From contig NZ_LR656173.1 in NCBI RefSeq assembly GCF_902168435.1, positions 1 to 64,000 on the forward strand: a DNA stretch of 64,000 nt. Reading direction: 5' to 3'. Position numbers and translations under genes: made by a program. The notes under the pieces were generated by a model. The model saw only the letters and a list, made by a program, of their open reading frames with translations. It did not search any database and was not told the origin of the DNA. Positions 18,541 to 56,000 of this stretch are shown in pieces; within the stretch, counting starts at the first letter, position 1, and each line of letters starts with the position of its first letter. The stretch comes from Bacillus marasmi (GTDB taxonomy: Bacteria; Bacillota; Bacilli; Bacillales; Cytobacillaceae).

Positions 18541-18687
18541 CTTGCTAACACCTCGATGGTAATTGTTTTTTCTTTTTATCATATCCAATTTTAAATAAAT
18601 TTCTGTGATGTAGTTGTCAGGATGTATCTTCTTTATTCTAATTTCATAAATCATGAGTAATATTTAATAAGATAAGGAGGGGATAAA

Positions 18688-19797
18688 ATGAAGTCAATAG
18701 GAATCTTAGGCGTTGGTCAGGCAGGTGGAAATATTGCGGAAATCGCATCAGCCTTAGGTTTTCAAAGCGCCCTTATCAATACGAATAAGCGTGATGGTGC
18801 AGTCAATACAAAGGTAGATAAGAAGTTTTTTGTACCAGGTTATAATGGGGCTGGGCAGGATCGTGCTTTAGCATTAAGAGCAGTTCACGACCATCATCAG
18901 GAAATGATTGAATTTGTAAAGAGGTCATTTAAAAATATTAAGTCGTTATTCGTTGCCTTTTCTACAGATGGCGGGACCGGCTCGGGGATGAGTCCAATTT
19001 TGATTGATATACTAGCAGATCAGATCCCCGGCATAAAAATTGGTGCAATTGCGGTAATTCCAGAACGTAATGTATTAGCTGGAAACCGTATTAATACAGC
19101 AGAGTGTATTGAGGAGCTATCGAGAATAGAAAATTTAGCCTCTGTGTTTTTGGTTGACAATGATCAAGTAAGAAAAATGAACCCACAATCCAGTAAACAG
19201 GAAATTTATATGGCTGCAAATCAGCAAGTAATGGAAGCTATTAATCATATCATTAAAGTAACACAAAAAAGTTCCTATTTCGGTAACTTTGATGAAACGG
19301 ATCTCTTGAATATTCTCGACACGAGAGGTGTCACGATTATTGCATCGACTCCGATTACAGGTGAGAAGACAACTGCAGAGGTTACCAATAGTGTCCAGAA
19401 ATCATGGGCACATTCAATCTTTTGTCCCGTTGAAGCGATGGGAGTGATTCGTGCAGGACTGATATATGATGGACCTGAGCGCATTTCTAAGTTAATAAAT
19501 GCACCGGCCATCTTTGAAAAAATCGGTGAACCCGTCCAGTTATTTGAAGGAACATATCTTTCAGATGGCGATCCAACAATCACCACAATCTTAGCAGGTT
19601 TGTCCTTCCCAACTCGTCGTCTCCTATCATTAGAAGAATCGTTAGAGAAAAATCGAGAGCGTTTACAATCATTGGTGAATAAAGAATACAGTCAGAAATA
19701 TAAATCACGGGTGTCCTGGGCTTCAAACTTAAAAACAAGAAGACCTGATAAACCAGCAGGACCGCTAACTGAAAAATTATCAAAATATCAAAAATAA
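18688..19797 (+). CDS. TubZ/FtsZ-like GTPase (tubulin superfamily)
   Basis: A 369-aa tubulin-fold GTPase that is not the division FtsZ. The N-terminus GILGVGQAGGNIAEIASALG and INTNKRD correspond to loops T1/T2. The G-box is DGGTGSGMSP (~residues 95-104). The T7 loop GNFDETDLLNIL keeps the N-x-D-x-x-D pattern that completes the GTPase site of the next subunit. The C-terminal ~40 residues are basic, like TubZ tails. The layout resembles plasmid/phage TubZ (Clostridium phage c-st type, from memory). No TubR/TubY-like gene or iterated centromere is visible. AAGGAGGGG lies 6 bases before ATG 18688. It ends in its own terminator, so it is monocistronic. Confidence 0.82.
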   Translation: MKSIGILGVGQAGGNIAEIASALGFQSALINTNKRDGAVNTKVDKKFFVPGYNGAGQDRALALRAVHDHHQEMIEFVKRSFKNIKSLFVAFSTDGGTGSGMSPILIDILADQIPGIKIGAIAVIPERNVLAGNRINTAECIEELSRIENLASVFLVDNDQVRKMNPQSSKQEIYMAANQQVMEAINHIIKVTQKSSYFGNFDETDLLNILDTRGVTIIASTPITGEKTTAEVTNSVQKSWAHSIFCPVEAMGVIRAGLIYDGPERISKLINAPAIFEKIGEPVQLFEGTYLSDGDPTITTILAGLSFPTRRLLSLEESLEKNRERLQSLVNKEYSQKYKSRVSWASNLKTRRPDKPAGPLTEKLSKYQK

Positions 19798-19825: not shown

Positions 19826-19855
19826 GGCTGACTCCAATCGAGTCAGCCTTCTTTT
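19826..19855 (+). terminator. Terminator of the TubZ-like gene
   Basis: A perfect 9-bp stem GGCTGACTC / GAGTCAGCC, loop CAATC, followed by TTCTTTT. Confidence 0.87.
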
Positions 19856-55615: not shown

Positions 55616-55872
55616 TGATAAATTCCTTTCTTTTTAAAACTACCTAGAACGTAGTTTGGATAAAAACCTAAAAATTATCCTTTTTGTAAACGTTCTTATA
55701 AATAATTAAAAACTAGTATTTCCTATTTACACTTTTATGAAAATTTTAAACAAAAAAATGTCCGTAATAGGAAAATAAATATCAATTGACAAACGTTATG
55801 ATTTTTGATGTAATTATATTAGAATAGTTTACTGGTATTAATAGCAAACTTATATGAATTGAATAAAACATA

Positions 55873-56000
55873 CGCTTAATCTAGAACAGAGCGGGGGAAC
55901 CATTCGTACATTTTGTACATGGGGTGAATCCTTTTAAAGGTAGGGTACTCTCAAACCCGAACCCGGCAGCTAACCTCGTAAGCGATTGAGGGGAAGTACT
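55873..56000 (+). promoter_or_regulatory. ydaO/yuaA-class c-di-AMP riboswitch
   Basis: The conserved blocks occur in order: CGCTTAATCTAGAAC, GCGGGGGAACC, GGGGTGAATCC, GTAGGGTACTCT, ACCCGAACCCGG, CAGCTAACCTCGTAAGCG. The outer helix P1 is CGCTTA (55873-55878) with TAAGCG (55979-55984). This class senses c-di-AMP and usually turns expression off when the ligand is bound. It lies 5' of the terminator at 56006 and the symporter gene at 56118. Confidence 0.92.

Follow-up and report, generated by a model that had tools for sequence, protein, structure and literature searches.

TubZ is a GTPase of the tubulin/FtsZ superfamily. In the portions of five papers considered here (PMC9871819, PMC2875224, PMC5322520, PMC3678025, PMC9178275), TubZ is encoded by plasmids or phages and, in Bacillus, is tied to TubR and a centromere. 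According to PMC5322520, the tip of the TubZ C-terminal tail modulates subunit binding and binds the TubRC segrosome and TubY. Among the best matches returned by our searches of the TubZ literature, we found no description of a chromosomal TubZ that stands alone.

Here we analysed a 64,000-nucleotide stretch of Bacillus marasmi DNA (contig NZ_LR656173.1, positions 1 to 64,000 of the forward strand; hereafter the window), which carries such a solo TubZ-family gene (Table 1). An earlier sequence-only reading of this DNA had proposed that the gene may be a TubZ domesticated for a new cytoskeletal role.

Table 1 Positions of the gene, its motifs and other signals in the window
Feature	Position	Strand	Remark
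Conserved promoter-like element TTCTAA-N13-GAGTAATAT	18636..18663	+	Window copy; 2 mismatches to the clade form
Ribosome binding site AAGGAGGGG	18674..18682	+	Read from the sequence; AAGGAGG 5' of ATG
Solo TubZ-family GTPase gene	18688..19797	+	Intact ORF; 369 codons/369 aa; ATG start
Tubulin-type G-box DGGTGSG, residues 94-100	18967..18987	+	Sequence
T7 catalytic loop NFDETD, residues 200-205	19285..19302	+	Sequence
C-terminal tip, residues 361-369, ends KLSKYQK	19768..19794	+	Tip pattern
Intrinsic-terminator-like hairpin, strong	19826..19848	+	z -4.1
c-di-AMP riboswitch (ydaO/yuaA leader)	55863..55999		103.9 bits

A TubZ-type protein with intact catalytic motifs

The window protein scored 48.6 bits against the Pfam Tubulin/FtsZ GTPase model (cut-off 33) and did not reach the FtsZ equivalog TIGR00065 (NCBIfam ftsZ; 51.1 bits against a cut-off of 295.2). 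The G-box and the intact T7 loop that the sequence-only reading had picked out are both in place. Residues 95-100 of the G-box are invariant in all 18 alignment rows, residues 92-103 have a mean top-residue frequency of 1.00, and D202 and D205 of the T7 loop are invariant in the aligned family members. With these catalytic motifs intact, the protein would, by analogy, be expected to hydrolyse GTP and to polymerise. The same genome also encodes one ordinary FtsZ, on a different contig.

A sequence search of solved structures returned, in order, phage TubZ and then CetZ and archaeal FtsZ, the top three PDB matches being two phage TubZ entries and one CetZ, and the predicted fold resembled TubZ more closely than it did FtsZ or tubulin. 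In a tree of 31 rows, all other rows were split from FtsZ at 100/99. The solo clade was supported at 100/100 and the TubRZ plasmid group at 98/99; the branching order of the TubZ lineages was weak (86/77, with long branches), and so was the grouping of phage G and Pontibacillus with the solo clade. Taken together, the sequence comparisons, the tree and the modelled fold assign the window gene, which is chromosomal, to the TubZ branch within the tubulin/FtsZ superfamily. The sequence-only reading had named TubZ as the closest look-alike, and the phylogeny and structure prediction that it had proposed as checks both came out in its favour.

Scattered Bacillales genomes also encode a different FtsZ/TubZ-like protein, about 430-460 aa long (L032:1393-2742 and L021:979-2280), with similar-sized matches in genomes G069, G085, G052, G030, G032 and G236-G238. 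The two members included in the tree lie on its TubZ side on long branches and score far below the FtsZ cut-off.

The window protein might instead be an extra FtsZ-type division protein with a role at the septum or in sporulation, given the shared superfamily, the intact GTPase and T7 motifs and an ordinary FtsZ in the same genome that would be available to assist it. We consider this quite unlikely, since the protein groups with TubZ rather than FtsZ, its last residues are unlike the tail of its own FtsZ, and no neighbour is conserved across 62 loci.

No convincing TubR in the solo-clade genomes searched

A TubR-like winged-helix ORF (about 94-105 aa) ends at, or within a few bases of, the TubZ start in pBM400, two Bacillus plasmids, phage G and genomes G057, G062 and G191. 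In phage G this ORF is gp137, directly upstream of gp138 (L054:3689-5116); a TubR profile built without gp137 scored it at 47.5 bits, and phage G appears on this evidence to carry a TubRZ pair.

Both TubR and an iterated centromere had been noted as missing by the sequence-only reading, and our searches agreed with this. No TubR gene lies beside the window gene. A seven-row TubR profile gave a best score of 13.8 bits (E 0.22) in its own genome and a maximum of 23 bits (E 3.3e-4, in G023) across all 22 solo-clade genomes searched, none of these matches being convincing. The same profile scored 130-142 bits in G057, G062 and G191; because these genomes supplied three of its rows, a leave-one-out test serves as the sensitivity check, in which the omitted rows still scored from 47.5 (phage G) to 123.9 bits. 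Among 2565 ORFs in 62 named solo loci, the best score against the full profile was 8.4 bits, and the TubR of pBM400, as a single query without a positive control, had no match in the window's own genome. In the intergenic regions beside the gene at the window locus, there were no tubC-like iterated repeats. The features of type III (TubZRC) partition, namely an operon TubR, an adjacent tubC and a plasmid or phage replicon, were not found for the window gene. The lack of a convincing TubR and of an adjacent centromere array argues that it does not encode a classical plasmid partition motor.

The solo gene is widespread, chromosomal and under purifying selection

In the host's family, 82 of 193 genomes match the window protein at E<=1e-9, and identity to these relatives is sharply two-peaked: 75 genomes (counted by hand from the rows) are 66-100% identical, three (G057, G062 and G191) are 30-34% identical, and four are 29% identical over about 220 residues. 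The solo gene is carried by 58 of 61 genomes of genus g24, one copy each. The match is near-full-length in 57 of these carriers and covers residues 23-369 in the remaining one, and none of the 58 contains an internal stop codon. The window's own genus has the gene in four of five genomes, the window's genome counted. The 62 named solo loci, at 66-89% identity, comprise 33 from Neobacillus, 25 from Bacillus and one each from Paenibacillus, Mesobacillus, Peribacillus and Niallia; a 63rd named locus is a Ruminococcus MAG at 24% identity.

Multi-megabase single-contig assemblies are among the carriers, indicating that the gene is chromosomal, as the sequence-only reading had stated. The viral contigs searched held no relative of the window protein, and no solo-clade member was found among viral contigs, plasmids and phages, which yielded only relatives at <=34.6% identity.

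The dN/dS ratios were 0.02-0.12 in eight of eight pairs (dS is saturated in G000-G004), and the active-site loops are near-invariant, with mean top-residue frequencies of 0.90-1.00 compared with 0.84 overall and 0.70 in the linker. The solo TubZ is under purifying selection. Because an ortholog of >=66% identity occurs in 75 of 193 family genomes and the ratios are low in every pair, the observation reflects more than chance. These data also bear on the idea that the gene is a functionless leftover of integrated TubRZ plasmids or prophages. Such an origin would fit relatives that are plasmid and phage genes and a presence that is patchy beyond the core genera; in view of the selection, the near-invariant loops, the near-full-length, stop-free g24 copies and a promoter-like box kept at most loci, it is very improbable and already disfavoured.

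We then defined a tip pattern, [LIVMF]x[KRQN][YFH] in the last nine residues, which was chosen after the sequences had been seen. The pattern occurs in 50 of 62 solo-clade proteins versus 30 of 578 control ORFs, and in five of eight TubZ relatives (phage G, pBM400, G057, G062 and G191); it is absent from the B. velezensis, B. pumilus and Pontibacillus TubZ proteins and from the window genome's own FtsZ. That the tip is kept although TubR is not suggests that it regulates the filament, binds another partner in place of TubR, or does both.

The gene is probably transcribed alone

The commonest form of the promoter-like element in the clade is GTCTAA-N13-GAGTATTAT, which sits 47-63 nt 5' of the start codon. 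We compared 62 upstream regions (L057 was left out for too little upstream DNA, and the window was added): 45 carry this form within one mismatch at a spacing of 13 or 14, the copies in the window and L056 each have two mismatches, and the upstream DNA is different in 15, including N. niacini strains. In a pattern search of 61 genomes, 30 of 34 matches lay just upstream of the solo gene, whereas the reversed control pattern gave five matches. The other four lay elsewhere, and no regulon sharing the box turned up in these genomes. The element bears what we take to be a slight resemblance to a sigma-B promoter, but its conserved departures argue against that assignment. The solo TubZ probably forms a single-gene transcript driven by this promoter-like element, the transcription start being a prediction from sequence.

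Neighbours are ordinary and not conserved

The six neighbours tested in the window are ordinary chromosomal genes, as the sequence-only reading had described them, and nearby genes at other loci are ordinary too. No neighbour is conserved across the 62 loci, the commonest neighbour family being common to eight. In a survey of two ORFs of >=80 aa per side at 52 of the 62 loci, the 203 nearest neighbours fell into 162 families, the largest of five; 148 representatives of these families were scanned, one per family and none longer than 900 aa. Among the first 25 families listed, the commonest Pfam matches were MFS and ABC transporters, LysR regulators and AMP-ligases (3-6 each), and the defence- or phage-type matches were scattered (mad3, AriA, endolysin-like and single cas genes), with at most three representatives per model except for phrog_2034 (6) and phrog_20458 and phrog_5982 (4 each, of unknown function). 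A plasmid-derived island, which the sequence-only reading had said would count against it, is rejected; the commonest of the Pfam families listed for the 148 representatives are those of transporters, regulators and enzymes.

The locus is syntenic among close relatives only. In 87 of 105 genome pairs (hand count), the solo gene alone is common within about 20 kb per side at >=45% identity. In several pairs, the similar DNA extends only about 30-150 bp upstream of the gene and at most about 30 bp beyond its end, and other pairs share longer flanks. The A3 rows comprise 55 of the 62 solo loci together with P0001 and L118.

A probable history of descent with loss, transfer and local turnover

On an RpoB tree of 57 genomes, from which G005 and G025 (no rpoB match) and G026 (broken rpoB frame) were left out, the presence of the gene needs at least 10 changes. 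The RpoB comparisons exclude G002, whose rpoB frame is interrupted. Across 30 genomes, TubZ identity correlates with RpoB identity (Spearman 0.51; 0 of 2000 permutations as high). Nevertheless, a TubZ clade of three genus g1 and five g24 genomes, a group named after the TubZ tree was seen, is rejected by RpoB (p-AU 0.00016), and a single g24 clade is rejected by TubZ (p-AU 0.031). Despite the correlation, these conflicts and the presence changes contradict purely vertical descent. G023 and G054 are 99.7% identical in RpoB and 88% in TubZ. By these comparisons, the solo TubZ has been exchanged between genera.

Loss in close relatives, another outcome that the sequence-only reading had named as counting against it, does occur. 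Genome G172 lacks the gene and its relative G169 has it: the G169 flanks are collinear in G172, with insertions, and about 6.6 kb of other DNA takes the place of the gene's 2-kb interval. G003 and G154 likewise gave no match to the solo TubZ. A short element just downstream of the gene in G169 (L183:4964-5375) recurs at several other G172 sites. Another repeat of about 200 bp (L184:2230-2450) has dozens of listed matches, 75-93% alike, in each of four related genomes, and matched no Rfam family at threshold.

Part of the left flank in G152 is near the gene in G173 and G169 too, and in G164 it lies 91 kb from the gene in the same orientation; across the four genomes under comparison, distances to right-flank pieces range from tens of kilobases to megabases. 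The flank breaks first suggested a transposing cassette; local turnover, rearrangement and transfer can explain the pattern, and relocation of the gene by some other route may also have played a part. We interpret these alignments and trees as a history in which the gene was inherited but also lost and transferred, amid strong local turnover, rather than as a plasmid island.

In single-contig genomes, the solo gene is often close to the origin, at a distance of about 4-12% of the genome, or close to the terminus, at about 45-50%; one copy sits at about 25%. The distances are hand estimates from rpoB, the positions partly follow clades and some scaffolds are possibly not closed, and the placement may be coincidental.

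A gene that is patchy, solitary, exchanged between genera and dispensable resembles accessory defence genes. An adaptorless TubZ could guard against TubZ-using invaders by co-assembling with, or poisoning, the filaments of TubRZ plasmids or phage-G-like phages, since TubRZ plasmids and a phage-G host are known among related bacilli, and the tip pattern is common to five of eight TubZ relatives, phage G included. We regard such a guard as unlikely: no PADLOC defence family matches the window protein, its commonest neighbour families are those of transporters, regulators and enzymes, no defence model in the families listed has more than three neighbour representatives, its occurrence in 58 of the 61 genomes of a single genus is stable for a defence gene in our judgement, and co-assembly is doubtful given an identity of only about 30% to invader TubZs.

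Discussion

In a group of soil bacilli, TubZ has become a common chromosomal gene, and without a partner tying it to DNA it probably builds filaments for another job. The likeliest reading, which we hold to be probable, is a host-recruited chromosomal TubZ filament with an accessory, non-essential task exerted via an unlinked adaptor. GTP-bound monomers would stack head to tail, as in TubZ, with the T7 loop of one subunit completing the GTPase site of the next, and filament dynamics would come from GTP hydrolysis. These dynamics may be tuned by the C-terminal tail, which is flexible and basic and keeps its tip; the tail may also dock the adaptor, through which the filament would serve its host task. 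The domesticated TubZ of the sequence-only reading fits a chromosomal, selected solo gene, and its new cytoskeletal job is conjecture; that interpretation is only partly supported because the locus is not syntenic beyond close relatives and is sometimes lost.

In a broader claim, on which we are evenly divided, a bacterial lineage took a DNA-pulling tubulin of plasmids or phages into its chromosome as a free-standing, genus-wide cytoskeleton, with catalysis kept under selection, the segrosome dropped and a host adaptor in its stead. With members in 58 of the 61 genomes of a single genus and no TubR that can be recognised, this TubZ clade provides a tractable system in which a DNA-segregation motor has probably become a host cytoskeleton, and makes testable the question of what a TubZ filament does without a centromere to pull.

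Among the known systems, the PhuZ of phiKZ-like phages is linked to the window protein by a PHROG phuZ profile match (2.9e-10), although phiKZ PhuZ itself has no BLASTP match at 1e-3 and a very long branch. Archaeal CetZ and FtsZ rank lower by fold, and FtsZ, separated in the tree, is about 20-26% identical in sequence. A Pontibacillus TubZ-like protein (NZ_CP062975; L055:5001-6080) is 27% identical over 95% of the query, and its gene, like the window gene, has no TubR-like ORF just upstream; unlike the window gene, it lies on an 898-kb plasmid, and its identity is low and its tree placement unsure. Phage G gp138 is 31% identical over 99% of the query and has the best non-solo tblastn score (180 bits versus 163 for the best plasmid), being about level with pBM400 TubZ by BLASTP; in contrast to the window gene, it is phage-borne and next to the TubR-like gp137. 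The plasmid type III (TubZRC) TubZ proteins of P. megaterium pBM400, B. velezensis and B. pumilus have a like fold, about 370 aa, the GTP site and the T7 loop, and are 31-35% identical over 75-96% of the query. Compared with these plasmid systems, the gene at the window locus is chromosomal and alone, without an adjoining TubR or tubC-like array, and the solo clade has its C-terminal tip pattern in common with pBM400 TubZ.
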